A program made the position numbers and the translations under genes. A stretch of 37,410 nt of DNA from Ignavibacteria bacterium (GTDB lineage Bacteria > Bacteroidota > Ignavibacteria > Ignavibacteriales > Ignavibacteriaceae): assembly GCA_030684555.1 (NCBI GenBank), contig JAUXVN010000077.1, positions 1 to 37,410 on the forward strand, written 5' to 3'. Below, one piece after another: positions 712 to 35,306 of this stretch. Under the pieces are notes generated by a model that made no database searches, was not told the DNA's origin, and saw nothing but the letters and a program-made list of their open reading frames with translations. Positions within the stretch are counted from its first letter, which is position 1; every line of letters begins with the position of its first letter.

Positions 712-3510
712 CTATTTTCCTTCGGGATACAAAACCACCTTTACAAAATTATTCATATCAATATATTTTTTTGCGGTTTCTTGAATCAATTTACTTGTTA
801 AAGCATCAGTCAATTGATCACTGGTATTTAATTCATTCAAATCGCGATTGTAGTAATAAAAACTTTGTAAAGTACGCGCCCAGAAATCGTTTTGCTTTCT
901 TTGCACTTCCCTTTCACGCCGTTGAATCTCTTTAACTTTTTCAATATAACTCTCTTCAAGAGGTGTTTCAATCATTGTTTTGAGCTGACTTAGAAGTTCA
1001 TTTGTTAACTCATCAACGCGATCGGGGGCACAACCAAATTCAATTCTCACTTCGTATGAATCATAAGGTGTTTGTCTTCCCCCCGCTGAGAATTTAACTC
1101 CGTAAGTTCCGCCTTTATCTTCACGAATAATTTCTCTAATCTTAATTCTAAATGCGGCACCCATCGAACTTAATAAATGGCTCTCTTCCCTTGTCCATTT
1201 AAATGGTCCGTTAAAACTGATAGCGATATAACTCTTTTGTTCAATTCCTTTTTTCACTTCCTTTGTGATTACACCTTTAGGAGAAGGATTATCTGAATAA
1301 CGATAAGATTCATTTCTTTTGGTTGAAGGAAGATTTGATAAATATTTTTCCACCAAAGGTTTTAACTCTTCTTCTGTAAAACTTCCCACAAAAATAAATG
1401 TGAAATCAGATGCATCTGCAAATCTATCTTTATAGATATCAAGTGATTTATTCATATTAAGAAGCTCAAGAGTTTTTAGAGTCCACGGCATTCTGCGTGG
1501 ATGATAATTGTTAAGAGTTAAATCCAGTGTATCATTAAAAGCAGCATCGGGACTCGCCTCTCGGTTTTCAACAAAAGTTTTCATCCTTGACTTATATGAA
1601 AGAAATGCCGATGAATCAATTCTTGGTGAATTAAAATAAGCATATATCAACTCGAACATCGTTTCCAAATCTTTTTTGGATGATGAACCAAGAAACCCTT
1701 CGGTTAATTCTGCGATATAAGGGTTAACATTAACAACTTTACCTGATAGTTTTTTTACCAAAGACGGATTATCAAAAACTCCGACACCACTTTGATTTAC
1801 CAATTGTCCGGCAGTAGCCGCAGGGATATAGTTATTATCGTCAATGAGAGAATTACCACCGGGGCTATATGCCCGCATTAATATCTCATCATTCTTAAAA
1901 TCTGTTGGTTTAAGAATTACTTTAATTCCGTTAGAAAGTTTCCATTCAGTAACCTCAAAATCCTTTATCTTTTTTTCTTCAACTATTTGTTGGGTCTTCA
2001 AGAGAGCCTCTACTAATGGCTGATCATCAACAACATCTTTATATGGTTCAAGATTTTTAGTTTTGACGTCTGCAAATACTTTACTCAATTCCCCTTCTGT
2101 TGGTAATGGAAGATTTTCTTTTTGAGGGGTGCTTACCATTACGACAGCGTTATTTTCATTCATCCATTCAATTGCTAATGCATTAATTTCTGAAAGAAGT
2201 ATTTGTGGAACAATTTCTTTTTGAAGTTCAAATTCATATTCGATTCCAGGAACCGGTTCATCTGCCAGAAAATGACGAATATATTCATTTGCATATTTTG
2301 CTGATTCAGATTTATCTCTTTCAGTGAAAGATCTTTCAATTGAAACTAATTGCTCATTTTTCGCGCGCTCAAATTCTGATTCAGTGAAACCAAATTTTTT
2401 AACTCTTTCGGCTTCAGTTAATACTGCATCCAACCCTCTTGCAATTTCTCCATCCTTAACTGTTGCACCGAGATAATAAAATTCACGTGTTCTTATAAAT
2501 GCTCCTTTTGATGAATTAGCGGAGGCATACGGAGGATCTGCCGTGTAAGTAAGTTCGCGAAGTCTTGCGCCTAACATTCGATTATATAAAACTTCTGCTA
2601 ACTTTTGTTTGAAATCTATAACTTTTTTATTATCACTATTTTTAACTTTATAATAGATGCCGACCGAAGAACCAGTTGCTTCAGGATCAGATGCGATTGC
2701 GAAGGACATTTTTTCTTGATCGGGAACGGGGAATAATTTCCTTTCACGCTTATCTTTTATTTGGTTGAGATTACTAAAATGTTTAACAATCATCTTTTCG
2801 ATTTCTTCTGTTTTAAAATCTCCAACCACAATAACAGCCATTAAATCGGGGCGATACCATTCATAATAAAATCTTTTTAACACATCATATTTGAAGCTCT
2901 CGATTATTTCTTTTTTACCGATTGGAAGTCGTACTCCATACTGAGAATTATCAAAAAGGATCGGGAATTGAGCATCCCGCAAACGTGCACCTGCACCGCG
3001 TCCGAGTCTCCATTCCTCAATGATTACACCACGTTCTTTATCAATCTCTTCATCTTCAAATGAAAGATTGTGTGCCCAATCTTCTAAAATCTGAAATCCT
3101 TTTCCCAAAGTTTCCATATTATCTGTCGGAAGCTGGAGCATATATATAGTTTCATCAAAACTGGTATAGGCATTTATATCGGGTCCAAACTTCATTCCAA
3201 TAGATTCAAGATAATTAACGAGTTCATTCTTTTTGAAATTTTCAGAACCGTTGAAAGCCATATGTTCTACAAAGTGAGCAAGTCCTTGTTGATCTTCATC
3301 TTCGAGTATGGAACCGGCATTTAGAACTAACCTAAGTTCAGCACGATTTGCTGGTTTTACATTTTCACGAATGAAATATTTTAGTCCGTTATCAAGTACA
3401 CCTGCTTTAATTTTAGTATCGAACGGGACTTTATCATTAAGATCAAACTTTTGTGAGTAGGATGAACTTATCAGAAATAGTGTAATTAATAATACTTTTA
3501 TGGATCGCAT
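712..3510 (-). CDS. secreted/periplasmic M16 family zinc peptidase (PqqL-like)
   Basis: This protein of 932 residues has a signal peptide (residues 1-20, ending SSSYSQ) and the two-half pitrilysin architecture. The inverted zinc motif HFVEH is at residues 79-83, and the likely third ligand is in GVIIEEWRLG around 165-166. The C-terminal half (about 540-932) has the M16 fold pattern but no HxxEH, as is usual for the non-catalytic module. The length equals that of E. coli PqqL (931 residues), a periplasmic M16 enzyme encoded beside a TonB receptor. There is no T9SS tail, so a periplasmic location is expected. The start is supported by AAGGA seven bases upstream. It is the last gene of the run, 20 bases after the C25 gene, and a terminator follows. 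Inferred role: degrading imported peptides or proteins. Confidence 0.9.
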   Translation of the reverse strand: MRSIKVLLITLFLISSSYSQKFDLNDKVPFDTKIKAGVLDNGLKYFIRENVKPANRAELRLVLNAGSILEDEDQQGLAHFVEHMAFNGSENFKKNELVNYLESIGMKFGPDINAYTSFDETIYMLQLPTDNMETLGKGFQILEDWAHNLSFEDEEIDKERGVIIEEWRLGRGAGARLRDAQFPILFDNSQYGVRLPIGKKEIIESFKYDVLKRFYYEWYRPDLMAVIVVGDFKTEEIEKMIVKHFSNLNQIKDKRERKLFPVPDQEKMSFAIASDPEATGSSVGIYYKVKNSDNKKVIDFKQKLAEVLYNRMLGARLRELTYTADPPYASANSSKGAFIRTREFYYLGATVKDGEIARGLDAVLTEAERVKKFGFTESEFERAKNEQLVSIERSFTERDKSESAKYANEYIRHFLADEPVPGIEYEFELQKEIVPQILLSEINALAIEWMNENNAVVMVSTPQKENLPLPTEGELSKVFADVKTKNLEPYKDVVDDQPLVEALLKTQQIVEEKKIKDFEVTEWKLSNGIKVILKPTDFKNDEILMRAYSPGGNSLIDDNNYIPAATAGQLVNQSGVGVFDNPSLVKKLSGKVVNVNPYIAELTEGFLGSSSKKDLETMFELIYAYFNSPRIDSSAFLSYKSRMKTFVENREASPDAAFNDTLDLTLNNYHPRRMPWTLKTLELLNMNKSLDIYKDRFADASDFTFIFVGSFTEEELKPLVEKYLSNLPSTKRNESYRYSDNPSPKGVITKEVKKGIEQKSYIAISFNGPFKWTREESHLLSSMGAAFRIKIREIIREDKGGTYGVKFSAGGRQTPYDSYEVRIEFGCAPDRVDELTNELLSQLKTMIETPLEESYIEKVKEIQRREREVQRKQNDFWARTLQSFYYYNRDLNELNTSDQLTDALTSKLIQETAKKYIDMNNFVKVVLYPEGK

Positions 3511-3530
3511 TGTTTTTCCTTATAAACTTT

Positions 3531-5759
3531 TTATGGAATCATTAAATTATTAAGACCGGTTGTTAATCTATTTTTTGTTCTGAGAGCTTCACTTTTTATT
3601 GAAGATTGGGAGTTTGCATCAGCAATAACTTCATTACAAAAATCAATTATAAGATTTTTTCTGAATGATAAATTAAACCACCCAAGAGTTTCGATTATTT
3701 GAACAACAATTTTTTCATCTTGTGTTCTATCTTTAGCAATTTCAATCAACCATGGCACCACTTTATGAAATTTGTAATTACGAAAGGTCTTAATCTCCTG
3801 AAGTTTATTTCTAATTTTTAGAGTATCACTTTTTATATTCGACATAATTTCATTATCAACCCACTCAATATTGCGCTTGAATGAATTAAGCATAATATTT
3901 TTATTGGATTCTTTCGACTTAAAATCGGGCATTTTTTCAAAATATTTTTCAGTCAATTCAATTGATTTTTCTGAGCTGATAAAGGACATTGCACTTTTTG
4001 CATTGAACGGTACACGGGGCGATTCATCAGTAATACTCACTTCAACCAAATACGGGAGGTATTCTTCTTTTCCAACTTCTCCCATCCAAATTGAGGTATA
4101 CTTTCTAATCATTTCATACGAATCTTTGATTGATAACTTTAATGTTTCATGGAATTCGTTTCCGCCGGATTGAGCAAGGAACTTCAGTGCATGTAAACGA
4201 ACGTTAATAGATTCATCATTTTTATAAATATTAACAAGTTCTTTATCGAATGATTTACCTAATTTTTCGTAAAGAATTCGAACTGCCATTTCTCTGATTG
4301 TCGCCGATTTATCTTTAAGAAGTTTCATCCAATAATCATTATTCTTTGTGTTAGCATTTCTAAAAAACAACTCCAACTCTTTTTGTGAAAACGAAACAAA
4401 CCTGAAAGTTGGATCACCGAAAAGGTGAGACTCAAGCATATTTACAAGCCGATGTCTCTCACCAACTCTAACCCCAAAGTTGAGCATTCCGAGATATTCA
4501 TTCGCCCATTTATCTTGAAGGCTATTTACCGAATTTCCTTCTGCCACAATTACATTGCCATTCCCAAAGATATAAGCTCCTGCTACGTAATCTTCTTTGT
4601 GAAAAGAACCATTAAAACATTGATCAAACATCACAAACTTTGCTTGTGGTGAAATTGCAGCGATATCTTGGGAGTAAATATCAAGTCCGTAATTAAGAAG
4701 TGAATCCGCTGCAATAACAGAATCTACAAATGCACCATCGAACCATGAATCGGGAACATCAAGCCACTTTTGAAAATACTCTTTAGCTTCATCGATATTC
4801 TTTTTGCTCTCTTTTGCCGAGCGAATTTTACTTCTGAGATAAAGTTTAACCTCATCAATTTTAGATTGCGGGTTTTCACCTCTGGGGTATTGATTTAAAA
4901 GCTGCATATCAACTGCCCCATGAGCATGAAATAAGGCAACATCCAAATCTTTCTTTTGAAGTTCCCGTAAAATAACTTCCTTCATATTATAACCCATTGC
5001 ATGGTTATAATGCTTCACCCGATTTCCCGCATGATATAATTGTGGAAATTGTTCTCTGATAGAAAGTCTTTCATCAGCCCAACCTGCAAGTGAATTAGAA
5101 TAATAGCCATGTCCGGTAAATACAAACATATTATTGATCGGACTTGATTTCTTTTTTTCAGCAACTACTTTTGCGAGAAATTTATTTATTAGTTCATAAT
5201 TAGAATCACCTTTTACTTGAGGTATAATTCGAGCTGAATAAATTTCTCTTTCAATTCTTTGAGGAGAATTCTCATCTAAAGAATAATAATATTGAAGCGT
5301 GTTAACAGTATCGCGTTGAATAAAATTAAATTTCAAATCGAAATCATCATAGAAACGATCCGAAGGAACACCTGTTCGAGTAAGCGGATAACGATCTTCA
5401 GCAAGTTTATATGCCGATGTCATGTGTTGAGCTTGAATTACCATTGGAATCGGGATATCACCAATAAATACAACTCCTTCGAAACCGGAATTCTCTTTAT
5501 ATAATCTTTCAATTTCTTTTTTAACTATATCAGGAGTCTGCCAATTATCAACAAGAATAAAAGTTGATAATCCATCATTCTCAATAGCGTTTTTATAATC
5601 GTGAATTGCACTCTTACACTTATCGTAAGTTAAATTATCGACTATAATAGCAAATGAACCGGAATGTTTTTGAACCGGTTTTATTTCTAAAACTTGCGCA
5701 TAGAAATTTATGTTAAACAATATTACAATAGTCAGTATCCGGATAAAACTTGATTTCAT
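3531..5759 (-). CDS. C25 (gingipain-like) cysteine peptidase with C-terminal HEAT repeats
   Basis: This protein of 742 residues has a signal peptide (residues 1-22). Residues 30-455 follow the caspase-like C25 layout: FEGVVFIGDIPIP at about 93-105, candidate catalytic histidine H280 in FHAHG, candidate nucleophile C381 in FDQCFNGSF, and the family signature LFGDPTFRF at 446-454. H217 in FTGHG resembles the gingipain TGHGS motif and is an alternative catalytic His. H280 is favoured because its strand is the motif-bearing one nearest the Cys strand. A helical insert (about 300-370) separates His and Cys more widely than in gingipains. From about 465 to 720 the sequence consists of HEAT-like helical repeats. 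Unlike secreted gingipains there is no T9SS tail and no visible prodomain. It sits between a YCF48 propeller gene and an M16 gene, in the place occupied by M28 in the other half of the locus. Confidence 0.82.
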   Translation of the reverse strand: MKSSFIRILTIVILFNINFYAQVLEIKPVQKHSGSFAIIVDNLTYDKCKSAIHDYKNAIENDGLSTFILVDNWQTPDIVKKEIERLYKENSGFEGVVFIGDIPIPMVIQAQHMTSAYKLAEDRYPLTRTGVPSDRFYDDFDLKFNFIQRDTVNTLQYYYSLDENSPQRIEREIYSARIIPQVKGDSNYELINKFLAKVVAEKKKSSPINNMFVFTGHGYYSNSLAGWADERLSIREQFPQLYHAGNRVKHYNHAMGYNMKEVILRELQKKDLDVALFHAHGAVDMQLLNQYPRGENPQSKIDEVKLYLRSKIRSAKESKKNIDEAKEYFQKWLDVPDSWFDGAFVDSVIAADSLLNYGLDIYSQDIAAISPQAKFVMFDQCFNGSFHKEDYVAGAYIFGNGNVIVAEGNSVNSLQDKWANEYLGMLNFGVRVGERHRLVNMLESHLFGDPTFRFVSFSQKELELFFRNANTKNNDYWMKLLKDKSATIREMAVRILYEKLGKSFDKELVNIYKNDESINVRLHALKFLAQSGGNEFHETLKLSIKDSYEMIRKYTSIWMGEVGKEEYLPYLVEVSITDESPRVPFNAKSAMSFISSEKSIELTEKYFEKMPDFKSKESNKNIMLNSFKRNIEWVDNEIMSNIKSDTLKIRNKLQEIKTFRNYKFHKVVPWLIEIAKDRTQDEKIVVQIIETLGWFNLSFRKNLIIDFCNEVIADANSQSSIKSEALRTKNRLTTGLNNLMIP

Positions 5760-5794
5760 TTAAATCTCATAAATATTATTACTAGAAAACTTCA

Positions 5795-8014
5795 TTACTT
5801 TGTTAAGATCATTTTTTTAGTTTCAATTCTGTTTGCGGTTGTTATTGTGTACATGTAAACGCCGCTCGATAATTTTGTCCCTGTAAAATCAATCGAATGT
5901 ACTCCGGCTGATTTTATTTCATTCACCAATACTTCAATTTCTCTTCCAAGCACATCATAAACTTTAAGCAGGACATGCTCTTTATTACTTAATTGAAATT
6001 CAATTTTGGTCGATGGATTAAAGGGATTCGGGTAATTCTGTTTTAAGACAAATTTTTCAGGTTGGAAATTATCTTTGATTCCAACAATAGTTCTTTCACC
6101 CAAAATATAACCGGATGATGTTCCAAAGAATGGTTTACCTGTCTGCGAAATTCCTGCACCAAACATTAAAAACTTACCAACAAATGTGGAATCATAACTC
6201 CAGCTATTTCCCAAGTCTGTAGTTCTAAGAATGCCGCCGTTGTATTCAGCTGCATAACCTAAAGAGTCGCCGGAAAAAGCTACTTTATAAAAACCCGAAT
6301 CGATATCAGCGATACCGTGATTTATATAATTCCAGTTTGCTCCTTTATCGGTAGTTAAACAAAGAAATTTTTCACCAATAGCAAAAGCTCTTTGGTTATC
6401 AATTTTAGCTACTTGCTCAAAGTCTGTTCCTAATGACAATCCCGCCGGGAAGTTATTTAATGTTGCCTGTGCCCAATTTGCTCCTCCATCAGTGGTTCGC
6501 AAAGCCCAACGATCCGGACCCAATGCAACAGCGTTATCTGCATCAAATGCTATCATGTCTCCGGAAATGTAACCGGGACCGGCAGTCATTAAAGATTGAT
6601 TCCATGTTTCACCTGCATCTGTGGTTTTAAGGATATAATATTCACTATAATCATTCTGACTGAAAAAAGCGTAACCGGTATTATCATCAGCAAAATCAAT
6701 ACCGCCCACAAGATTCCTTGCATTGGAGCTAACCGGTTCTGAAACAGTTCGCCATGTTTGGGCAAAATCAGTTGATTTAACTATATGCCTATTCTCTTTA
6801 AGAATAAAAAGATTATTATTTGAAGTAAAAGTCATTGCGCTTGAAACATTTTTCCCTGCTTGCGATAGGTAACTCCATTCATGCCCCTTACCGTCTGCGT
6901 TGAAATAAACGTCACCATTTCTTGAGACTGCAAATCCTTTATTATCAAAAAACTTTATTGACACAACCGATGTTGGGGCTTTTAAAGGAAGTATTTGCCA
7001 GTTATTTCCAAAATCATTTGAATAAATAAAATGTCCTGAGGTCCCGAGTGCAAATAAAAAGTCACCGTTTCCATAAAGTGCTTGTAATCCGAATGCGAAA
7101 TCGAGCGCTGTAGATGACCATGTTTCACCACCATCAACAGTTCGTGTAAAGAATGCTTTACTGAATCCATCACTTCCTACAGCAACACCTTCAAGACTAT
7201 TTTTAAAGTAGCCTGATCGTACACGGTCAAAAATATTTGTGAATGATTGACTTTTCTTCGTCCAGGTCAATCCTTTATCCGTAGATTTATAAACCGGAAC
7301 CATTACACCGGAAAATTCATTCCCTTCTCCCATGGCAATTACATCTGTGTCAGTTAAAAACTTCACATATTTTAGATCGCGGAAAAAATTATCAACTATT
7401 GCTGTGGAGAGTGTCCATGTTTCACCAAAGTCAGTTGAATGTTTTTGTAAATCTTTTTTATCACCAACAAGCACACCATCATTGCCGTTAAAAGTAATAT
7501 CGTACCAACGTCTAAGAAGAGTTGCTGAGACAAGAGAATCTTTAACTGCCCAAGTTTCACCACCATTAGTAGTTTTTAAAAGATAAATTGATCTGAGTTT
7601 CCCGGCAATTATGAAACCGGTATTAGCATCAAAAAATTTCATAAGATCAAGAATGCTAAACGTCATTGTTGGAACAGCAGCAGAATATGAAAACTCGTTC
7701 CATGTAAGTCCGCCGTCAGTTGTTTTAAATACCGAACCGTCAACTGTTCCCATCCAGCCGTTATTGACGTCAGCAAAAGAGACTTTCGCCAAATCTTTAT
7801 CAGTATTAGTTGTTAACTCGGTCCAACTTGTACCACCGTTCGTTGTTTTATATAGAGTCCCCTTATTGCCTGCAAGCCAGCCATGTGTACCATCAACAAA
7901 AGAAATATCTCTTATAATTTCTTTAATATCCGGTGTTGAAAGTATCTCCAGACTCTGAGCATTGACTAAGAAAGTAAATGCAAAAAGAAAAATGATTAAG
8001 AATAATTTTTTCAT
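5795..8014 (-). CDS. T9SS-secreted YCF48/BNR-type beta-propeller protein
   Basis: This protein of 739 residues starts with a signal peptide (to about 19, VNAQ) and ends in a T9SS sorting domain (QNYPNPFNPSTKIEF, then LSSGVYMY and a lysine-rich KKMILTK end). In between I count 13 copies of the hK-T-T-D-G-G-x-x-W strand motif of YCF48/sialidase-like propellers, for example VFKTTDGGLTWNEF and ALRTTDGGANWAQA. A further half-blade precedes the tail, which suggests two seven-bladed propellers in tandem. An AGGAG lies upstream of the start. It is expected to be exported and attached to or released from the surface. The ligand is unknown, and the YCF48 name does not imply photosynthesis. It follows the DUF6850-type barrel gene by 21 bases. 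Confidence 0.88.
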   Translation of the reverse strand: MKKLFLIIFLFAFTFLVNAQSLEILSTPDIKEIIRDISFVDGTHGWLAGNKGTLYKTTNGGTSWTELTTNTDKDLAKVSFADVNNGWMGTVDGSVFKTTDGGLTWNEFSYSAAVPTMTFSILDLMKFFDANTGFIIAGKLRSIYLLKTTNGGETWAVKDSLVSATLLRRWYDITFNGNDGVLVGDKKDLQKHSTDFGETWTLSTAIVDNFFRDLKYVKFLTDTDVIAMGEGNEFSGVMVPVYKSTDKGLTWTKKSQSFTNIFDRVRSGYFKNSLEGVAVGSDGFSKAFFTRTVDGGETWSSTALDFAFGLQALYGNGDFLFALGTSGHFIYSNDFGNNWQILPLKAPTSVVSIKFFDNKGFAVSRNGDVYFNADGKGHEWSYLSQAGKNVSSAMTFTSNNNLFILKENRHIVKSTDFAQTWRTVSEPVSSNARNLVGGIDFADDNTGYAFFSQNDYSEYYILKTTDAGETWNQSLMTAGPGYISGDMIAFDADNAVALGPDRWALRTTDGGANWAQATLNNFPAGLSLGTDFEQVAKIDNQRAFAIGEKFLCLTTDKGANWNYINHGIADIDSGFYKVAFSGDSLGYAAEYNGGILRTTDLGNSWSYDSTFVGKFLMFGAGISQTGKPFFGTSSGYILGERTIVGIKDNFQPEKFVLKQNYPNPFNPSTKIEFQLSNKEHVLLKVYDVLGREIEVLVNEIKSAGVHSIDFTGTKLSSGVYMYTITTANRIETKKMILTK

Positions 8015-8035
8015 TTTTCGTAACTCCTGTTTTAT

Positions 8036-9550: not shown

Positions 9551-9566
9551 TTAGTTCATTTCTTAA

Positions 9567-10757: not shown

Positions 10758-10784
10758 ACTATTCTCATTTCATTTATCATATCG

Positions 10785-13457: not shown

Positions 13458-13508
13458 AAAAAGAAGTTTTGAGAAATTGAAAGTTGTCTGAATAATCTAA
13501 GTTTAATA

Positions 13509-13531
13509 AATGCCGGGACAAGCCCGGCATT
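13509..13531. repeat. perfect 9-bp stem hairpin, REP-like
   Basis: AATGCCGGG (13509-13517), a five-base loop, and CCCGGCATT (13523-13531) form a perfect stem much richer in GC than its surroundings. It lies in the 108-base gap between a YCF48 gene and the second TonB receptor gene. On the - strand only a weak TTTATTAA follows, so it is a poor intrinsic terminator. It could be an mRNA-stabilising or attenuating hairpin, or a dispersed palindrome. Confidence 0.7.
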
Positions 13532-13565
13532 CCATTAAGAACTGAGTAAGCACTGTACAAAAAAG

Positions 13566-15962: not shown

Positions 15963-16002
15963 AGTAACCTCTTTTTATGTGATAAGTTGATTAAATATTT
16001 TC

Positions 16003-17961: not shown

Positions 17962-17978
17962 TTCCCCTATGAAAATCT

Positions 17979-18013: not shown

Positions 18014-18021
18014 CCATTTTT

Positions 18022-19977: not shown

Positions 19978-20042
19978 AACGACCTCCTGTTTTTTTAGAG
20001 GAACAACTGTCGTTGATTTCTCATCGGCAGCATTACTATTAT

Positions 20043-22856: not shown

Positions 22857-22881
22857 TGTACTAATCCGTTTTATAAAATAA

Positions 22882-24663: not shown

Positions 24664-24678
24664 TAGTTTTCCTTTAAA

Positions 24679-26892: not shown

Positions 26893-26913
26893 GTTATCCT
26901 CTAAATTATAAAT

Positions 26914-28374
26914 CTAAAAAGTGTTTAATCTCATTGTAATGAAAGTCGATAATCCGCTTCGGTGTAAATCAACAATATCAGTGGTTGAGAGTTTTTTATA
27001 CTGAATATTAGCGTTGATATACAATACAGAAGAAACCGGTAAACCAAATCCCGCTGTCAATAAAAGTGATTTTACATCACTTCCACCGGACAGTAAATCA
27101 ATTTCATTGTTGCCATAATTTATCCCGGCTCTAATGAAGTGATTAGTCATAAATTCGTACTCAGCCCCGAACCTTACTAAGTTATTAAATGATGTTACAT
27201 TAATAAAACGAGTATCAATATATTTTGAAGAATCAGCTTTAAGAGACGAAAATTCAATTTCCCCGCCGATAAGAAGCGGAAGGAAATCAAATTTATATGA
27301 TGTACCAATACCACCGAAAATTTCGTTTACATCCCAATCCCAAAGCAGTAAATTCTTTTTGGAATTGTTTGACCAACATTTACGGTCATTATATCCGGTT
27401 GAGATGCCCATTAGCCATGCATCAGAAATCGAATATTGACTTTTGAATTTAAAATCTATCGTATGGAAATCCGTATAACCTTCTTCAACATCAATTAAAC
27501 CGCTTTGAGGAACAAGTACTTTCGCAACCTGGGGAGTAATTGTAGTTTGTAAAGCCATTGAGAGTCGGTTAGACGGCTGATAAAACAACTGCCCGGCGTA
27601 TTCAATTTTCTTTCTGTTTAATTTTTGAGTTACAGAAGAACCCCGTTTTCCGACAAAGTATGTATCACCACGATAATTAAAGACTTCTACTTCTAAAAGA
27701 TTTACATCTTTTGCTTCAACAGTTTCTTGAAAATCTGAATATTTAATGTTCGATGCTATTACAAATTCATAAGAGAGTTGGTATGCTAAACCAACATTAA
27801 CCGCTACTTCGCGATAGATTGACTGTGCGTTTGTGTATACTTGTTTTAACCCATCTAAAATCTGATAATGCCCGGACACACCAGCATAAAGATTGTCAAA
27901 AGGCTCCCAACTGTATGTGAGGTTTACGATAGGACCGCTATAACGAAAATCACCTTTCGTTGTATCAATCATGAAAAAAGCTTCACCGGAATATGTATCG
28001 CGGCGTAAAGTTCGATATAAGTTTCTTACGATTTCATAATTATAAGAGGTGAATCCGACGAAAGTTCCTTTATCTTCCAATCGCTTAACACCTTTGAATG
28101 CTGTTCCGTAATTGATTGAACCTTCTGAATCGTAAGTTCTTCTGTAGTCACCCCAACTATTTTGAACGGATGGAGTTATATCAAGGAACGTTTCCACTTC
28201 GTCTTTCACAATCCAGGCAGGATTACCGCCAAAATTGTATGGAGTAAGAGAAAAATCCCTATCAACAATACCGTATGTCAGCCCCCCCATCGCTGAGGTT
28301 CTGCTGATTTGTGCGTTGACATTATTTACTGAAAAGAGCGACATTAAAACTATTATAAATAATAACCTTAACAT
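26914..28374 (-). CDS. DUF6850-type outer-membrane beta-barrel protein
   Basis: This protein of 486 residues has signal peptide 1-21 (ending NVNAQ). Its barrel-like alternating strands show the same order of features as the protein at 8036-9550: FGGNPAWI near the start, RRDTYSGEAFFMIDTTKGD, AQSIYREVAVNVGLAYQLS, and NYRGDTYFVGKRGSS in the middle. The C-terminal strand ends STFITMRLNTF, with the terminal Phe typical of outer-membrane barrels. Its ATG overlaps the stop of the DUF4857-type gene (TAATG), and GGGAG lies seven bases upstream, so translation is probably coupled. No substrate is readable. The DUF label is less certain than the barrel call. Confidence 0.7.
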   Translation of the reverse strand: MLRLLFIIVLMSLFSVNNVNAQISRTSAMGGLTYGIVDRDFSLTPYNFGGNPAWIVKDEVETFLDITPSVQNSWGDYRRTYDSEGSINYGTAFKGVKRLEDKGTFVGFTSYNYEIVRNLYRTLRRDTYSGEAFFMIDTTKGDFRYSGPIVNLTYSWEPFDNLYAGVSGHYQILDGLKQVYTNAQSIYREVAVNVGLAYQLSYEFVIASNIKYSDFQETVEAKDVNLLEVEVFNYRGDTYFVGKRGSSVTQKLNRKKIEYAGQLFYQPSNRLSMALQTTITPQVAKVLVPQSGLIDVEEGYTDFHTIDFKFKSQYSISDAWLMGISTGYNDRKCWSNNSKKNLLLWDWDVNEIFGGIGTSYKFDFLPLLIGGEIEFSSLKADSSKYIDTRFINVTSFNNLVRFGAEYEFMTNHFIRAGINYGNNEIDLLSGGSDVKSLLLTAGFGLPVSSVLYINANIQYKKLSTTDIVDLHRSGLSTFITMRLNTF

Positions 28375-29636
28375 TATTTAACTCCCGCAGAGTTTTTTTG
28401 ATTAAAATCTCTAATTACACTCACCGCTATCACTCCATAAATACCACCGACAGCAATAAGCAGGAACTGAAAAATATTCTTACTTAAATCATATTTTTTG
28501 TATTTAAGAAATCCGGCAAATAAAATCACCAGGATGAAATTTATAAGTAGGAAACGGAAATCTTTATAATCGAAATCGAAATTGATAAAAAGTGATTTAC
28601 TACCGGCAAGTGTAAAGGTGAAAGGGAAAATATAAGCAGCCGTTACACCAAAAGTTGTCTCATCTTTATGAATAACTGAATCTTTATAAGAAGTAATCAA
28701 TTTATAACTTCGATCATATACAAAAGTCGAAATTTTATTATCGTTCATGATATTGACTCTTCTATAAAGGATATCGCCATTCAAGCCCATTACTGAATTT
28801 TTATAATCGTAATCTTCTATTGGAATGTTTACTATATGATAATCACCTTCTCTTAACATATAGAATTTACTATCATCCGTAACAAAGTAACCAAAGAATT
28901 CATGTAAATCTCTTTCAAGAACTTCCATGTGAACGACTTTACTATTCTCCGGTAATTTTACTTTATGAACGTACGGTTTATTCTTAACTCTCTTTAAATG
29001 AAAGAATTGATCTTTGCTGTCAATTACGAAATAACCTTCATCAAAAGGTTTACGGGTTGTTGGGTTTCCGAATAACTCCTTAGCCGGAAATGTAAAATCT
29101 TTATCCATTAATTCTGAGGTGAATAAGTCAGACATTTCCTCGTTGACTATATTTGTTCGACAATCAACTATCTTCATTCTCTTTTCGGTTATCGAGAAAA
29201 ATTCGTTCGGAAAACTCAACGATGCTCTGTTCGGTTTTGATTCAATCAACGGATGCATTAAAAGTTTGAAGGCATCTATTTTTGCAGGTTCAACCCCTGT
29301 TCTATACAAGTTTTTTCTTAGTTCAGAAGCTGTGAATGCAACTCCTTTTACTGTATCAGGAAGTTTTCCGAGGAAGAGTAATTGTGTAAATGCAGTTTGT
29401 GGAACAAGTGCCTCATATTCTCTGGTGTTATAGCTGTTCCCTTTGAGGTCAACAACCATTGATTCCTTAAAATCACCTTTAATTATTAAGATATCATCAA
29501 GTATTGGACTGTAAACTATACGGGGTAAATAATATCTTTGTGGAAAAGTTTTCCAGAATATTTCAGGTAAATATATTGATGCAATAAATATAATTACCAA
29601 CGAGAGAATCAATTTTAAAAATATATTATTTTTCAT
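28374..29636 (-). CDS. DUF4857-type inner-membrane protein
   Basis: This protein of 420 residues has one N-terminal membrane segment (about 7-27), a large middle part of about 330 residues and two C-terminal membrane segments (about 360-380 and 388-410). The middle part, presumably periplasmic, carries motifs I associate with DUF4857: PRIVYSPILDDILIIKGDF, LPDTVKGVAF, HPLIESKPNRASLSFPNEFF and KPFDEGYFVIDSKDQFFHLK. Its start overlaps the permease stop by four bases (ATGA) and has AGAGGTG upstream, and its stop overlaps the next gene's start. This tight coupling to an ABC ATPase and permease suggests a third subunit of that transporter. Function is unknown. Confidence 0.75.
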   Translation of the reverse strand: MKNNIFLKLILSLVIIFIASIYLPEIFWKTFPQRYYLPRIVYSPILDDILIIKGDFKESMVVDLKGNSYNTREYEALVPQTAFTQLLFLGKLPDTVKGVAFTASELRKNLYRTGVEPAKIDAFKLLMHPLIESKPNRASLSFPNEFFSITEKRMKIVDCRTNIVNEEMSDLFTSELMDKDFTFPAKELFGNPTTRKPFDEGYFVIDSKDQFFHLKRVKNKPYVHKVKLPENSKVVHMEVLERDLHEFFGYFVTDDSKFYMLREGDYHIVNIPIEDYDYKNSVMGLNGDILYRRVNIMNDNKISTFVYDRSYKLITSYKDSVIHKDETTFGVTAAYIFPFTFTLAGSKSLFINFDFDYKDFRFLLINFILVILFAGFLKYKKYDLSKNIFQFLLIAVGGIYGVIAVSVIRDFNQKNSAGVK

Positions 29637-30313
29637 TTCACACCTCTTTTGTAATTATTTCCGGACCAGAGGATAAGTGGTGAAATGATTATAATCATTA
29701 TCACAAAATAGAACCACGACTCCGAATAAGAATAAGTAGTCCCGCCATACATAGTGGACAAGTAATAGTTGTTTACAAATGCTAAACCGGTTAAACCGAT
29801 TATAGCACGTCTACTCCATGAAGTATCAACAAAAATAATTGTTATAAAGATATAGATAACAAATCCTGCCAATAACCAGGGGAGAATCGAAATAAACATT
29901 CCGTTAATTATTTCTGACGGAAAGTATTTTGATGAAAACCATAACAGAATTATAACATCAACTGCAAAAATTAGAAACATTGAACCAATCCCGAACAGTT
30001 GCATAGTCATTAATGCTTTACTTTCTTTCATCGGGAGATGAAGAGTAAGCTTGATTCTGCTTGAATTTATTTCAGGATAAAATTGAACTATTCCGAGCAA
30101 TAGACCTGTTAAAAATGGGATGTATAACAAGTCGTAATAAAAAAGATTTTGAAGAGCAACTATGTCACCATAAAGTTTGCTTGCATCAATAAGACCAAAA
30201 GCATTTGCAATAGATACACATGTGCTCACAACAACTAAAAGGTTTAGCATACCAAGTGCAATTAATGTCCATCTGACTTTTAACCATTCTTTGTAGATAA
30301 GAGATTTAATCAT
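29633..30313 (-). CDS. ABC-2-type transporter permease subunit
   Basis: This short protein of 226 residues has six predicted membrane segments, at about 16-38, 57-78, 98-122, 138-162, 165-187 and 197-218. A charged cytoplasmic N-terminus (MIKSLIYKEWLKVRW) is typical of ABC-2-like permeases. AGGAA precedes the start. It lies 10 bases after the ATPase gene and overlaps the DUF4857-type gene. No substrate-specific motif is visible, and ABC-2 permeases more often export than import. Confidence 0.8.
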   Translation of the reverse strand: MIKSLIYKEWLKVRWTLIALGMLNLLVVVSTCVSIANAFGLIDASKLYGDIVALQNLFYYDLLYIPFLTGLLLGIVQFYPEINSSRIKLTLHLPMKESKALMTMQLFGIGSMFLIFAVDVIILLWFSSKYFPSEIINGMFISILPWLLAGFVIYIFITIIFVDTSWSRRAIIGLTGLAFVNNYYLSTMYGGTTYSYSESWFYFVIMIIIISPLILWSGNNYKRGVK

Positions 30314-30323
30314 TTTTTTATTC

Positions 30324-31214
30324 CTAATACTTTCCTGTTAAACCGATAAATGCATCTTCCAAACTCATTTTAACCTGCTGAACACCATGATGTTTTAACC
30401 CTAATTTTTCAAGGTGATTTAATAAAACGGATTCTTCGGCAAAGGTAAAAAATGATGTTTTGTTCTTTAAAATTTCAACATTTTTAATAATGTCATCTTT
30501 TTGAATGACCGGGGGTGGGTTATCAAGGATACATCTAAAATGTTTGAACTCATCCATAAACTTTTTAATTGGCATTGTCATTAAAACTGTTTTATAGTCA
30601 AGTATAACACAATCATCCAGCAGTTCTTCCAAATCTTGGATAATGTGTGATGTTATAAAAACAGTTTTTCCTTCGGCTTGAATGTAATCACTTAGATAGT
30701 CAAGGAATAGCCTGCGATAACCAGCGTCAAGTCCCATCGAGAAATCATCAAGTATTAACAGGTCTGGATTTTGTGCGAGTAATAAACCAAGTGCGATTTG
30801 TGATCTTTGACCGCAAGACATTTTAGAAATTTTTTGCGTTTCTGTTACTTGAAGTTTTTTTAATAATTCCCAATAAGCTTCTTTTTTCCAGTTGGGATAG
30901 AATCCCGAATAATACTTTTCTATCTGTTTAATATTCATAAATGAATATTGAATATGTCCTTCAATAAGAAAACCAACACGTGATTTAGTTTGAGGTGAAA
31001 GCTTGTGTGAGTCTTCATCGAATACTAAACACTGCCCGGAAGTCGGCTCTAAAAAACCATTCAGAATATTTATTGTTGTGGTTTTTCCCGTTCCGTTTTT
31101 ACCCAGCAACCCGAAAATAGATCCTCTATTAATTTGAAAATTTAGATTTTCAAATATTAATCTATCGCCGTAATGGTGGGTTAAATTTTTAACCTGAACA
31201 ACTGCGTTACTCAT
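30324..31214 (-). CDS. ABC transporter ATP-binding subunit
   Basis: This protein of 296 residues has Walker A GKNGTGKTTT (about 38-47), a signature loop MSCGQ (132-136) in place of LSGGQ, Walker B LLILDD (152-157) and switch histidine H190 in ITSHI. The usual catalytic glutamate after Walker B is aspartate (D157), and the second signature position has Cys. ATP binding seems intact, but hydrolysis may be slow. About 80 residues after the H-loop form a small C-terminal domain seen in ABC-2 exporter ATPases. AAAGGAAA precedes the start. It is encoded 11 bases after a DUF4876-type lipoprotein gene and pairs with the permease that follows. Confidence 0.92.
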   Translation of the reverse strand: MSNAVVQVKNLTHHYGDRLIFENLNFQINRGSIFGLLGKNGTGKTTTINILNGFLEPTSGQCLVFDEDSHKLSPQTKSRVGFLIEGHIQYSFMNIKQIEKYYSGFYPNWKKEAYWELLKKLQVTETQKISKMSCGQRSQIALGLLLAQNPDLLILDDFSMGLDAGYRRLFLDYLSDYIQAEGKTVFITSHIIQDLEELLDDCVILDYKTVLMTMPIKKFMDEFKHFRCILDNPPPVIQKDDIIKNVEILKNKTSFFTFAEESVLLNHLEKLGLKHHGVQQVKMSLEDAFIGLTGKY

Positions 31215-31225
31215 ATATTTTCCTT

Positions 31226-32320
31226 TTAATGAAAACCGGGTGTTGCTGCCGGGATATTTTCCCAGTCAAGCAAGCCGTCATTTGTGTCAACACCGGGTTC
31301 CCGGCGTCTCATTGATTTACCACTATATTTTACCGGACTCAACATATAACTTTTATCTACACGCGAGTCTAATGTTTTACGTGTTGTGTGACTTGATTTA
31401 TATTGTATTCCGTCTATAATTGTCGAAATATCAATACCATCTTCCCAAACAGAATCAACGCCTGAAGAGACAACAATAACATCGCTCACAAGGTTAATTA
31501 AAAAATCGACTGTCCTATCCGATCTCATATTAATTAAGTTGGGGACATTAGGATTATCAAAGTCAGAGAATGAATATTGATTATAAAATTCCCAATCGGC
31601 GTTACTTAAATCGACACTTGTTGCTACAGTATTCTTATGATTTACTGCGGTTGATGCAAGCACTTTATAAGTTTTTGGAAGTATCGGATGATTTGTTTCT
31701 CCAGGTTTACCCGGGAATTTAAAAACATAAGTAACACCATCAATATCATTGTCATCACCTTCATCGGCTCCGGGACCTTTACCATCGCTATTTCCTGATA
31801 CCCGCATCACCATCATTCCATCAAGATATTTAACGCTGTCACCGTAATTATATAGTTCAATAAATTGATCATAAAAAAAGAAAATATTATTCAAAGGTCC
31901 GCCTGCATAAATTTCATTAATAGCGATTCCTGTATTAGCAATTTGGCTTGCATAAATAGTATCGATAAATCTTTCTGCACCCAAATCGATTTCTCTAAGA
32001 TTCCCTACTAAAAGTATATTAGGATTTAACGGATGTGACATCCTCACTGTAATAGAATAAATTGAAGCAGGTAATCCATTAAGATTTAATACTCCGTTTT
32101 CATCAGTATATTTTATCATCATACCATATTCTGAAGCAAGAATAACTTTAGCATTAGTCATTTTAACAAAAACCGGTGTAGAATCAACTAATGCAGTATC
32201 ACCCATTGCATATATTGTCATCTCTCCCCGCCCATCAACAGCAAGTGGAGGTTCTTGCCGGCATGAAGCCAACAATATTATAACTGTGATAGTTAATAAA
32301 TATTTAATCATTTGATTCAT
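31226..32320 (-). CDS. DUF4876-type lipoprotein
   Basis: This protein of 364 residues has a clear lipobox LLASC with acylated C20. Residues 30-125 form an Ig/carboxypeptidase-regulatory-like domain (ENGVLNLNGLPASIYSITV). From 130 onward come DUF4876/lamin-tail-like blocks: NEIYAGGP, DQFIELYNYGDSVKYLDG, TSVDLSNADWEFYN and DFDNPNVPNLIN. It overlaps the receptor gene by 17 bases. A strong GGAGGT inside the receptor's end serves ATG 32320, and a second ATG at 32311 gives a shorter leader that would also work. It is a paralogue of 9567-10757. It probably works with the STN receptor as an outer-membrane accessory, by analogy to SusC/SusD pairs. Confidence 0.82.
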   Translation of the reverse strand: MNQMIKYLLTITVIILLASCRQEPPLAVDGRGEMTIYAMGDTALVDSTPVFVKMTNAKVILASEYGMMIKYTDENGVLNLNGLPASIYSITVRMSHPLNPNILLVGNLREIDLGAERFIDTIYASQIANTGIAINEIYAGGPLNNIFFFYDQFIELYNYGDSVKYLDGMMVMRVSGNSDGKGPGADEGDDNDIDGVTYVFKFPGKPGETNHPILPKTYKVLASTAVNHKNTVATSVDLSNADWEFYNQYSFSDFDNPNVPNLINMRSDRTVDFLINLVSDVIVVSSGVDSVWEDGIDISTIIDGIQYKSSHTTRKTLDSRVDKSYMLSPVKYSGKSMRRREPGVDTNDGLLDWENIPAATPGFH

Positions 32321-35306
32321 CTTTAATCATACCTCCAAATATTCCTTCTAATGACATACTAAATTCAATACCATAAAATAGAGGCGGGTTGCGGCTGTCT
32401 TCTGATTCTGTTGTTCTTGTTACAAAGTAGCGTCTGACTGCTGCATCGTTAAAAAAGTTATTTACATAAAATGAAATTTCTGCACCTTTAAATAAAGACT
32501 TACTCATACTCAAATTGAAGAGCCATTTATTTGGTCTAATTTTCATTTCTTCGTCAAAAGCTCGATCTAATTTTTGTGTCTCGTTAAGAAGATTGTAATC
32601 TAACGGTGTTAAATTATAATTCTGATTTCTTTCAAATACAAGTTGCTCGGCTCTTAGTGTTATCCATAGACCCAAAGGAGCTAACGTATATTTAATGTAA
32701 TAGTTCAATTGTAATCTATCATTCCATCTGCTGCTGCTTGGATAAATCCATCCGATTAATGTATCGATAGGCATCCCGGGCACAACATAATTAGGATATC
32801 TTCCTATCGACTGATCCGGATTTGAACCATAATTAAAACCTTTGCCCGGTGTATTAATATGATTATATGCTCCTGTAATCTGGAAGTCCATATTAAGTTT
32901 TTTTATCCTTGAAGTCCGCAGTGTGAATTCAATTCCTTTACTGTATGAAACACCAAGATTTTCAGGTAAAGAATATTGATCGATATAATAGACATAAACC
33001 TGATTATTATCAGTTGCACTTCTAAATACAGGATACGGAATTGATATCGGTGAATTTGTCCTCTCTTTGTAATACGCTGAAAGTGTAGTTCCAATCATAT
33101 TTGCAAACTTGTGATCGTATGCAATTTCATACATAGTCTCTTTATAACCTTTAAGTTCAGGGACTTGTTTATTGTATCGATAATAATCAATAGTACCATC
33201 TATCGGATTTCTCCACTTAAAAACTGTTTCCGGAGGATACAGAGTAGACATTGGCGGTGATTTGGATGATGTACCGGCACTTAATCTCACCTGATTAACC
33301 TCTGATAAATAAACCATGAAATTCATTCTCGGATTAAAAAAACTTCCTTGATGCGATTGAACTAAATCGCCATCACCCCACAGTCCGGATAAATTAAATT
33401 TATATGGACGATACATTTCATATCTAAATCCAACCATTATGTTATAATCAAAAATAAAATGTCCGGTAAGTTTATCTTCAAAATACATACTTGCCAAAAA
33501 TTGCCCGGGGACATCATCAAAACGATAGGGGCGTCTTCCCGACTCGACTCCATAGTAACTTAAAGATGTATCGAAAACAACTCCTTCACCCGTGTTTAGA
33601 TTGTATTGAGGATCAACACCAAATAGTAATTTATGAATGACATTTCCAGTATAGAAAATTCTATTATACTCCAACCGTCCGCCTAAAGTCCATTCAATAC
33701 CGCGAGTTTCAACCTTACCGATGTAACTTGAAGCAGTATCTCCATTCGGAAGAATAACATATTCAGTATTCAACTTGGATTTCATTGAATTTTCACGCCG
33801 CATAGTTCCATATAAATTATAATCTATTGCTGAGATTCCATCTTCAGGTCTGTACTTTCCCCAGGAGGATAAACTCATCGTATAACCACGATTATAATTC
33901 CGGGTCATCAGCATGTCTCCTTTAGGTTCTTCTTCATCCAAAACTCTTTGAAACATAATTTTATTGTTTGTAGTTAATGCTGTTCCAAGAAGGTTAGCTG
34001 AATAAACAGCCTGTCCGGTTAATCTGAAATACTCATCTCCTGTTTTTCTAATATCCCGTTCACTTTGGGCAACATTAAAGTTATAACTTACTGAGCCCTC
34101 GCCGACTAATACTCCTCCGCCGAAATTTCCTTCTCTTGTATCAGGATTATTTTTAATTTTTAATCGATGAGGTGCTTTACCAATCTTTGTTTGAACATTG
34201 ATAATACCGGCTGTAACGTCACCATAACGAACTGAAGGGAGTCCGGTTATAACTTCGATATCTTCAATATTATCGGCAGGAATAGTTCTTAAGTCAACAC
34301 CTCTACCTGTATTTGAACTACCGAATTTTGCTCCCTGCAGTCTTTCAAATTGCATATTAGCATTATTTGATACTGGCGTTCCATCAATAACGATTAATGT
34401 ACCGAAAGCTGTGTATTGATCAGCTTCATCACCACGAACTGCAATCTGGCTTGTTTTGCCCAAACCCGGGTTATCGCTTTTTTGAACACCCGGAACTAAA
34501 TCCAAAACATCTTTCAAACTTGATGCCTGGTAATGTTCAATTTCACCACTCGTTATCGTGGTTTTAGAATTGACATCTTTGGGTAAAAGTCCGCTTGAAC
34601 CAATTACTTCAATTCCACCGATTTGAAATGCTGTTGATTTAAGTGTGAAATTAATCTCCAATATCTGACCGGCAATTACCTTTACTTTACGAGAGATATT
34701 TTCATAACCAATGAAAGAAACTTCAATTGTATACTCGCCGGGTTTTAGATTCTTTATAAAATAATTCCCTTTCATGTCTGATGCGCAGCCTATTTTCAGT
34801 TCCTTAATCATAAGATTAGCCCGCCATAAAAGTTCACCGGAATCATCCTTAACAACTCCTTTAAGACCACCGGTTTTTTCATCAATTTTTGTACGTTTTG
34901 CTAAAGCAATTTTTCCCGCACCATATTCGTAAAAACTGATATTATAAGGATCTAATAATTCAGTCAAAACAGTATGAAGCGGCTTATTGTGGGATGAATA
35001 AGTAATATCCTTAATGTTTAAAAGTTTATCTTCAAACACGAAGTTAATCTGATATTCCTTAGAGATTGTATTAATAATTTGCGAAAGATTTGCATTTGAA
35101 AATTCTACAGTTATAACAGTATTTAAAAGAGAAAGTGATTTTGCACTGCTTTCTGCTTCAGTTACACTTGGTTGAAAGAAAAGAAAATTTTCGGTCTCTT
35201 CTAATTCCCCCGATGTTTCTGAAACCGGCAGCAATGCCGCATCCTGCCCATAACTTAGACAAAAACCGATAAAAAATAAGAACAATAATTGTATTGAATA
35301 TTTCAT
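32304..35306 (-). CDS. TonB-dependent receptor with N-terminal STN signalling domain
   Basis: This protein of 1000 residues has signal peptide 1-20 and an STN (secretin/TonB short N-terminal) domain at about 64-135. A carboxypeptidase-regulatory-like domain follows at about 146-222, then a plug at about 240-370 (TTITSGEIEHYQASSLKDV, IVIDGTPVS, SVRYGDVTAG), then a long barrel. The STN domain directly contacts FecR-type regulators in known systems, and here ECF and fecR genes lie immediately upstream (40-base gap). This receptor is therefore the likely sensor of the locus. A hydrophilic tail (GGMIKDESND) extends past the last barrel strand. It may not be native to the barrel, because its codons overlap the lipoprotein start. 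No Shine-Dalgarno sequence is seen. Confidence 0.94.
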   Translation of the reverse strand: MKYSIQLLFLFFIGFCLSYGQDAALLPVSETSGELEETENFLFFQPSVTEAESSAKSLSLLNTVITVEFSNANLSQIINTISKEYQINFVFEDKLLNIKDITYSSHNKPLHTVLTELLDPYNISFYEYGAGKIALAKRTKIDEKTGGLKGVVKDDSGELLWRANLMIKELKIGCASDMKGNYFIKNLKPGEYTIEVSFIGYENISRKVKVIAGQILEINFTLKSTAFQIGGIEVIGSSGLLPKDVNSKTTITSGEIEHYQASSLKDVLDLVPGVQKSDNPGLGKTSQIAVRGDEADQYTAFGTLIVIDGTPVSNNANMQFERLQGAKFGSSNTGRGVDLRTIPADNIEDIEVITGLPSVRYGDVTAGIINVQTKIGKAPHRLKIKNNPDTREGNFGGGVLVGEGSVSYNFNVAQSERDIRKTGDEYFRLTGQAVYSANLLGTALTTNNKIMFQRVLDEEEPKGDMLMTRNYNRGYTMSLSSWGKYRPEDGISAIDYNLYGTMRRENSMKSKLNTEYVILPNGDTASSYIGKVETRGIEWTLGGRLEYNRIFYTGNVIHKLLFGVDPQYNLNTGEGVVFDTSLSYYGVESGRRPYRFDDVPGQFLASMYFEDKLTGHFIFDYNIMVGFRYEMYRPYKFNLSGLWGDGDLVQSHQGSFFNPRMNFMVYLSEVNQVRLSAGTSSKSPPMSTLYPPETVFKWRNPIDGTIDYYRYNKQVPELKGYKETMYEIAYDHKFANMIGTTLSAYYKERTNSPISIPYPVFRSATDNNQVYVYYIDQYSLPENLGVSYSKGIEFTLRTSRIKKLNMDFQITGAYNHINTPGKGFNYGSNPDQSIGRYPNYVVPGMPIDTLIGWIYPSSSRWNDRLQLNYYIKYTLAPLGLWITLRAEQLVFERNQNYNLTPLDYNLLNETQKLDRAFDEEMKIRPNKWLFNLSMSKSLFKGAEISFYVNNFFNDAAVRRYFVTRTTESEDSRNPPLFYGIEFSMSLEGIFGGMIKDESND

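Follow-up and report, generated by a model that had tools for sequence, protein, structure and literature searches.

What does a bacterium do with two neighbouring gene modules, each built around a TonB-dependent receptor, a DUF4876 protein, a DUF6850 protein, a YCF48-type propeller and peptidases, and do the genes of each module work together? The question is raised by a stretch of 37,410 nucleotides from an Ignavibacteria bacterium (assembly GCA_030684555.1), here called the window, which is one entire contig (JAUXVN010000077.1) of a 4.34-Mb genome in 152 contigs. Its locus comprises 20 genes, all on the minus strand, with intergenic distances that range from -17 to 108 bases. Followed in the direction of transcription, half A reads TonB receptor, DUF4876, ATP-binding cassette (ABC) ATPase, small hydrophobic protein, DUF4857, DUF6850, YCF48 propeller with a type IX secretion system (T9SS) tail, M28 and M16; half B reads TonB receptor, DUF4876, DUF6850, YCF48 propeller with a T9SS tail, a peptidase with HEAT repeats (the HEAT peptidase) and M16. 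An original prediction had placed two modules on one strand in this order and at these coordinates, which gene calls and domain searches bear out. The locus exceeds the extent drawn in that prediction: genes for an extracytoplasmic function (ECF) sigma factor and FecR go with A, a third YCF48 gene goes with B, and a 4Fe-4S gene goes with A elsewhere. The receptor, the DUF4876 protein, the DUF6850 barrel and, in module B, the HEAT peptidase form a conserved gene set, and this core is very probably a real functional unit. The principal genes of the two modules are as follows.

32304-35306, minus strand: TonB-dependent receptor A with an N-terminal FecR_C-like signalling region (Plug and CarbopepD_reg above cut-off, FecR_C just below; A clade in trees)
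31226-32320, minus strand: DUF4876 protein A (PF16215; lipobox LASC; lamin-tail-like region below cut-off)
26914-28374, minus strand: predicted DUF6850 outer-membrane barrel A (PF21012; a row in the alignment behind the model of copy B)
24679-26892, minus strand: YCF48-type propeller A with T9SS tail (PF14870, PF18962)
22882-24663, minus strand: M28 peptidase of half A (PF04389, E 3.7e-46)
20043-22856, minus strand: M16_A, a fused active and inactive M16 pair (PF05193 twice; PDB 4nnz/3amj by halves)
10785-13457, minus strand: TonB-dependent receptor B (Plug, CarbopepD_reg; B clade; no signalling region found)
9567-10757, minus strand: DUF4876 protein B (PF16215, E 1.6e-29)
8036-9550, minus strand: predicted DUF6850 outer-membrane barrel B (PF21012; AlphaFold model)
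5795-8014, minus strand: YCF48-type propeller B with T9SS tail (PF14870, PF18962)
3531-5759, minus strand: HEAT peptidase (signal-peptide-like N-terminus, predicted gingipain-fold domain at about residues 31-456, HEAT repeats)
712-3510, minus strand: M16_B, a FusC/PqqL-type M16 peptidase by its near-full-length PDB matches

The evidence for the core comes from its recurrence. An alignment of HEAT peptidases was scanned against genome contigs, and the best 80 of 222 relatives were kept, which do not constitute an unbiased sample; six of these loci (L076, L079, L080, L084, L085 and L096) overlap with the class and phylum genome set described below, and gene labels represent the best profile match, not a position in a tree. 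The strict order requires TonB receptor, DUF4876, DUF6850 and HEAT peptidase in that sequence, with no more than two genes separating DUF6850 from the HEAT gene; 59 of the 80 loci show it, and in 19 of these a YCF48 propeller is interposed. In 14 of the 21 loci outside this definition, the available sequence contains no more than two genes ahead of the HEAT gene, and six of the remaining seven keep DUF4876 nearby. The receptor gene lies beside the HEAT gene in 65 of the 80. These records include Bacteroides, Prevotella, Pedobacter, Alistipes, Balneolales, Neomarinimicrobiota, Calditrichaceae and KSB1; both Balneolales records (L117 and L131) end before any core gene could appear, and the synteny recurs in records of Ignavibacteria, Bacteroidia, Neomarinimicrobiota, KSB1 and Calditrichaceae. 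The nearest relative found among named records, an Ignavibacteriaceae metagenome-assembled genome (L070), encodes a HEAT protein 69% identical and a receptor B 82% identical to those of the window; the scan may omit the window's own genome. A record labelled Pseudomonadota (L087) carries a module B receptor and DUF4876 protein identical to those of an unplaced bacterium (L086), which is probably a binning error.

The pairing of A with B also recurs. Two Neomarinimicrobiota loci (L123 and L130) read TonB, DUF4876, DUF6850, HEAT, M16_B, ABC, membrane protein, DUF4857, TonB and DUF4876_A, which is the window's A and B pair in another phylum with B first; in L123 a single gene on the opposite strand separates M16_B from the ABC gene. 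Because the ABC/DUF4857 cassette and the peptidases vary in position between genomes, gene content is more conserved than full order. The original prediction held that the gene order is itself functional and that the components work together, and it proposed a search for synteny in other genomes. That search shows the core recurring across Ignavibacteria, Bacteroidia and other phyla, so that components travelling together in recurrent synteny is upheld; the emphasis on order gives way to content.

A second view was obtained by labelling the gene neighbourhoods of DUF4876-bearing genomes with phmmer and profiles. DUF4876 is present in 14 of 148 genomes of the phylum and in 20 of 245 genomes of the class. 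DUF6850 lies within about 4 kb of DUF4876 in all 14 phylum genomes (12 by Pfam, G009 and G035 by phmmer), a proximity that is more than chance; six of the 18 genomes with a DUF6850 match have it without DUF4876, and only one of the six (G076) scores above the DUF6850 cut-off. Module A occurs in all 20 DUF4876-bearing class genomes and is joined by module B in eight (G000, G062, G345, G269, G093, G212, G181 and G160); module B alone was found in none of these 20, to which the statement is limited. A and B are adjacent in G000, G062, G345 and G269 and probably also in G093, where two contig ends fit, and they lie on different contigs in three of the eight (G212, G181 and G160). Module pieces ending at contig borders in G035 (L045, L059) and G093 (L028, L030) suggest assembly breaks inside the locus. 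Contig ends (G160, G300, G035, G256) lower the A-locus counts for M28, M16, the polyferredoxin (FER45), the SBBP gene and the ABC set; DUF6850 and DUF4857 of G014 were missed by a simple open reading frame caller and detected by Pfam.

How are the two halves related? The original prediction saw two diverged copies in tandem, with five of six classes recurring in the same order. In blastp best segments, the receptors are 34% identical over 899 columns, the DUF4876 proteins 29% over 401, the DUF6850 proteins 22% over 320, the YCF48 propellers 29% over 772 and the M16 peptidases 26% over 253 residues of the N-terminal part only. YCF48_A is about as close to the third YCF48 protein (29% over 731) as to YCF48_B. 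Recent tandem duplication is ruled out by pair identities of 22-34% and by the separate clustering of A and B rows across genomes. Duplication of the M16 gene is ruled out by the different kinds of the two peptidases and by the restriction of their identity to the N-terminal part; because the kinds differ, the candidate duplicates are four genes, not five. Their different best structures and limited identity imply that the M16 genes joined the modules separately.

Trees of homologues, which the original prediction had also proposed, place A and B each with counterparts from other genomes. These trees are of a quick kind with midpoint roots, leaving the root of the A/B split unfixed, and their only support values are from the Shimodaira-Hasegawa-like approximate likelihood ratio test (SH-aLRT). 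Both the TonB and the DUF4876 tree resolve three separate groups (SH-aLRT 95-100): the A rows, the B rows and the Bacteroidia rows. Rows selected from 45 eligible loci among the 80 named ones and from 25 eligible neighbourhood sets among 36 enlarged the trees to 71 TonB and 76 DUF4876 rows. There A remains one group (SH-aLRT 100), which also includes the second module of each of two Neomarinimicrobiota genomes, that of L104 and, in the TonB tree, that of KSB1 locus L091. Because the A group includes modules from other phyla, the A/B split predates the spread over phyla, or the pair moved together. Judged by these trees, A and B are two old, separately inherited lineages that recur in other genomes: they stand side by side in the window, as the original prediction had it, but as old lineages that are unlinked in three of the eight class genomes holding both. 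Counting against two clean lineages, the DUF6850 tree leaves B as something other than a single clade (2 changes). The YCF48 tree is weak: support for the YCF_A branch is 27, and the propellers at the B loci of G093 and G212 are separated from those of the remaining B loci. Some A modules carry two tandem DUF4876 genes (L034, L036, L037 and L043); the tandem copies within G323 and within G156 are mutual nearest rows, and G181 and G160 share both copies.

The HEAT peptidase belongs to module B. Its predicted model is confident (predicted local distance difference test, pLDDT, 93.1), and structural comparison of the first 456 residues of the model aligned 295 residues with RgpB (1cvr; Z 30.1, root-mean-square deviation 2.8, 15% identity). 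Other gingipain structures follow (4ief, Z 30.1; Kgp 6i9a, Z 28.8), and the next family is separase (Z 16.6). The gingipain fold is absent among the Foldseek matches listed for the whole model because the HEAT repeats fill the list. H280 and C381, matched to the catalytic residues of RgpB by sequence order and not by superposition, are invariant in 48 of 48 aligned copies. Pfam searches up to E 0.01 returned only HEAT profiles, with neither a C25 match nor a Por_Secre_tail. The gene classes named in the original prediction were right by domain searches, except that the C25 reading of this gene rests on its predicted fold. The full-length protein occurs in three of the 148 phylum genomes, all with module B; the profile matched 16 further genomes partly, mostly within the HEAT repeats, and these were not counted as family. 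The gene is multi-copy in 16 of the best 80 loci, and eight Bacteroidales loci (L108, L116, L120, L134, L135, L138, L139 and L148) carry three or four copies consecutively.

M16_B matches PDB entries over nearly its full length: 9ldy (E 1.9e-166), PqqL 6ofs (1.9e-74), 6b03 (7.5e-60) and also 6brs. Entry 6b03, described in the search output as a putative zinc protease, is one that we take to be FusC. By these matches M16_B is a FusC/PqqL-type relative and falls within that subfamily, whereas M16_A falls outside it: the latter matches single-unit M16 chains (4nnz, 3amj) by halves and PqqL/6b03 over its first part only. Both retain an HxxEH zinc motif at residue 79. M16_B adjoins the HEAT gene in the window and in six of the best 80 loci (L084 and L085 divergent, L140 cut short). 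In a Neomarinimicrobiota locus (L092), the peptidase gene that comes after the HEAT locus is of the M16_A type (988 bits) and not M16_B, which indicates that both M16 kinds occur with HEAT-type modules.

At the outer membrane, the receptors stay outside the SusC family (TIGR04056 71.5 bits for B and 84.1 bits for A against a cut-off of 368.25), and no SusD domain was found in 19 window genes by Pfam up to E 0.01. A PqqU plug match appears for receptor A only, with E 5.7e-5, far below cut-off. The solved relative of DUF4876 protein B is a 'putative lipoprotein' (4q1z, E 3.6e-21). DUF6850_B is modelled by AlphaFold as a β-barrel (pLDDT 91.4) that compares with solved barrels at similar Z scores (CymA 19.2, FhaC 18.9, porins about 15-17), without a specific near relative. 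DUF6850 is thus a predicted outer-membrane barrel, for which we do not claim homology to PorV or FadL; the absence of PorV among the matches listed for this comparison excludes nothing. In loci L056-L058 DUF6850 was named by position, with phmmer scores of 27 bits (L057), 21 bits (L058) and none (L056).

Module A also holds the three elements of cell-surface signalling, namely the sigma factor, the anti-sigma factor and the signalling region of the receptor (FecR_C slightly below cut-off). FecR lies near TonB_A in 13 of the 20 class A loci, where receptors measure 958-1005 residues, compared with 880-912 residues in the four complete receptors without FecR. This difference in length fits an extra N-terminal region that talks to FecR. 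These regulators and the other genes around the core are listed here.

36553-37107, minus strand: ECF sigma-70 factor of module A (TIGR02985 above cut-off)
35347-36444, minus strand: FecR anti-sigma factor of module A (FecR and FecR_C above cut-off)
30324-31214, minus strand: ABC ATPase (PF00005)
29633-30313, minus strand: small hydrophobic protein, presumed ABC permease partner (hydrophobic sequence; no Pfam or NCBIfam match)
28374-29636, minus strand: DUF4857 protein (PF16149, E 9e-79)
18022-19977, minus strand: SBBP-repeat T9SS protein, a variable companion (PF06739, PF18962)
16003-17961, minus strand: NapH/NosR-like membrane polyferredoxin with an HMA-like C-terminal region, a candidate inner-membrane reductase (Fer4_5; NapH_ below cut-off)
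13566-15962, minus strand: third YCF48 T9SS propeller, companion of module B (PF14870, PF18962)

The genes for the ABC ATPase, the small membrane protein and DUF4857 form a cassette whose members occur together. Counting the window, some of the cassette is present in 12 sets, and in nine of these the small hydrophobic gene lies between the other two. DUF4857 occurs in six of the 148 phylum genomes, all with DUF4876, and in two of 198 Bacteroidia genomes, again adjoining TonB and DUF4876, with DUF6850 by position. The cassette is found with the core at two separate tree positions; because the Bacteroidia DUF4857-locus rows group with Bacteroidia and not with A, it joined the core at two places, or it joined early and was often lost. 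The polyferredoxin accompanies module A in nine of the 20 class A loci and occurs in five of the best 80 HEAT loci. Its Cys/His set is invariant in 10 full-length relatives, including Cys363 and His390 of the HMA-like C-terminal region. Bacteroidia loci contain PepSY_TM proteins (L056, L057) or CCP_MauG peroxidases (L049, L054), which may be counterparts of the polyferredoxin; PepSY_TM proteins have been described as metal reductases (PMC13038864). Orthologues of the third YCF48 gene lie beside B in G062, G345, G269, G181 and G160, and the SBBP-repeat gene is found in five of the 20 A loci. In G093, T9SS proteins with HYDIN/ASH-type Ig domains lie inside or beside the modules (L029 7190-8923, L028 14558-18166).

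What, then, might the modules do? Proteolytic import through TonB receptors is documented for ferredoxin uptake by Pectobacterium and has been proposed for YddB/PqqL. We consider the chances about even that the two paralogous modules import a protein or peptide ligand, most likely one bearing iron or haem, and process it in the periplasm, a reading in which both the substrate and the activity are inferences. A surface lipoprotein, DUF4876, would capture the ligand and hand it to the TonB receptor for import, with the DUF6850 barrel as a possible second pore or receptor partner and the YCF48/T9SS propellers as putative surface accessories. Periplasmic peptidases without T9SS tails would then cut it: the gingipain-fold HEAT peptidase and FusC-like M16 in B, M28 and the other M16 in A. 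A membrane redox protein may reduce and free the metal (the Fer4_5 polyferredoxin here, PepSY_TM or a MauG-type peroxidase in Bacteroidia), and the ABC/DUF4857 set may handle the product or keep the periplasm clear. Module A would sense the ligand through FecR and the ECF sigma factor; B would not, and may rely on induction by A. It is tempting to speculate further, with somewhat less confidence, that the modules represent an unnamed protein- or peptide-piracy system of the Fibrobacteres-Chlorobi-Bacteroidetes (FCB) group. Its hallmark would be a periplasmic gingipain-fold HEAT peptidase with the TonB receptor, DUF4876 surface lipoprotein and DUF6850 barrel, existing in two ancient paralogous forms, often together, to which FusC-type M16 peptidases and membrane reductases were repeatedly recruited.

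Published expression data on relatives are consistent with a role in iron acquisition. Depletion of iron with dipyridyl induces BT3625-33 by 36.7- to 128-fold, BT1933-39 (a locus holding HEAT, DUF4876, TonB and other genes) by 3.5- to 7.4-fold and PG1019-22 by 20.8- to 214.5-fold (PMC10434189). A DUF4876 gene of P. gingivalis is among those most under-expressed in excess haemin, with a log2 change of -5.42 (PMC10470040). The gene order of BT3625-33 equals that of locus L057 except for one extra gene annotated as fimbrillin, which argues for import. In Fus systems, the TonB receptor is accompanied by FusC or, in multiple cases without FusC, by a cytochrome c peroxidase (PMC6793856). The appearance of both companion kinds in the present loci favours import of a protein or peptide, periplasmic proteolysis and release of metal.

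Several observations pull the other way. One of the 80 HEAT loci (L074) carries the HEAT gene without the core, 72 have no M16 gene adjacent or within two genes (some because the sequence ends), and in the phylum sample no HEAT or M16 gene of the window type is present at the seven Bacteroidia loci with DUF4876 (L049-L055). No FusA entry appeared among the PDB matches of either receptor (phmmer, E 0.001), a miss by sequence, which is weak, in a set of chains that may not contain FusA. A lipobox was not found in DUF4876 protein B of the window with a loose pattern, which, applied to uncurated starts, is present in 15 of 24 A, five of eight B and seven of 10 Bacteroidia DUF4876 proteins. Dipyridyl can bind metals other than iron. 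Copper would be just as compatible with the HMA-like region of the polyferredoxin and with the MauG companions. Finally, iron control was reported with dipyridyl in Bacteroidetes relatives, not in this genome, and the available description of PG1019-22 names no peptidase (PMC10434189).

The same evidence bears on other explanations. The modules could import peptides or proteins as food, supplying carbon and nitrogen in the manner of RagAB, with peptidases that digest the cargo and no special role for a metal. Several peptidases of different kinds, T9SS surface proteins and the SusC-like plug match below the TIGR04056 cut-off would suit such a diet, but the lack of SusD among the window genes searched with Pfam, the recurrence of a 4Fe-4S membrane protein, PepSY_TM or MauG companion and the iron regulation of relatives make it unlikely. 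The modules might also take up a small peptide metallophore, perhaps one that binds copper and resembles methanobactin, with the peptidases freeing the metal by cleavage; this would agree with the HMA-like region (below cut-off) and NosR/NapH kinship of the polyferredoxin and with the MauG-type partners in Bacteroidia, for which we assume an analogy with MbnT/MbnH. Profile scans recognised no genes for metallophore synthesis in the window, and in the published data induction follows the chelation of iron or a low supply of haemin; we regard this proposal as rather improbable. It is highly improbable that type IX secretion and surface assembly account for the barrel, propeller and peptidases, with the TonB receptor incidental. 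The Por_Secre_tail of the propellers and a weak PorV_fam match of DUF6850_A (E 1.6e-4; 21.4 bits, where the cut-off is 90) point in that direction; however, Bacteroides and Prevotella records with the whole core (such as L101, L138, L139 and L147) have no propeller, gut Bacteroides are not known to carry a T9SS, and the receptor gene usually stands beside the HEAT gene. Co-location without joint function, in which neighbours hitchhike with two iron-uptake receptors, draws on the variable peptidase and ABC positions among A loci but is scarcely credible given that the four-gene core order is kept across phyla and that the main groups of the TonB tree match those of the DUF4876 tree.

If import of a protein or peptide ligand with periplasmic processing is correct, a module that unites TonB receptor and gingipain-fold peptidase in Bacteroidota, Ignavibacteriota, Neomarinimicrobiota and KSB1 would carry protease-associated import into common gut and environmental bacteria and would provide candidate functions for DUF4876, DUF6850 and DUF4857. 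Relatives can be tested in Bacteroides thetaiotaomicron, where induction by iron depletion has already been reported (PMC10434189).

The original prediction knew of no named system with this composition; searches of the open-access literature found none and met the DUF names in three papers only, but relatives from Bacteroides and Porphyromonas have been described there as loci under iron control. Parts of the modules resemble known systems. Like FecA/FecR/FecI signalling, module A combines an ECF sigma factor, FecR and a receptor with an N-terminal FecR_C-like region, whereas no such set was found for B in the window. Like the SusCD/RagAB and BtuBG pairs, the TonB receptor adjoins a probable surface lipoprotein, but DUF4876 is not SusD and dedicated peptidases are present. 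The HEAT peptidase shares with the C25 gingipains RgpB and Kgp its predicted catalytic-domain fold (Z 28.6-30.1) and a His that precedes the Cys; it differs in its identity of about 15%, its HEAT repeats on the C-terminal side and the absence of a detectable T9SS tail. Gingipains themselves carry a T9SS C-terminal tail. The Bacteroidetes iron-stimulon loci (BT3625-33, BT1933-39 and PG1019-22) share the DUF4876 and TonB core, BT3625-33 also an ABC ATPase, DUF4857 and PepSY_TM, and BT1933-39 a HEAT protein; in contrast, the available account names no YCF48 propeller or M16 gene and describes no A and B pair (PMC10434189).

The closest functional parallel is provided by Fus and YddB/PqqL, in which, as in module B, a TonB receptor gene is clustered with a FusC/PqqL-type M16 gene. 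In both, the companion can instead be another protease or a cytochrome c peroxidase, and regulation by iron, seen here in relatives, is a further shared feature. The window differs from Fus in adding a DUF4876 protein, a DUF6850 barrel and a gingipain-fold HEAT peptidase and in the other M16 kind of module A. The modules are found in FCB phyla, whereas the survey of FusA relatives describes Proteobacteria (PMC6793856). Because the receptors are not recognised as FusA-like by sequence search, the modules may be said to work like a Fus system rather than to be one. By this analogy, they would constitute a variant of protease-associated import that has not previously been named.

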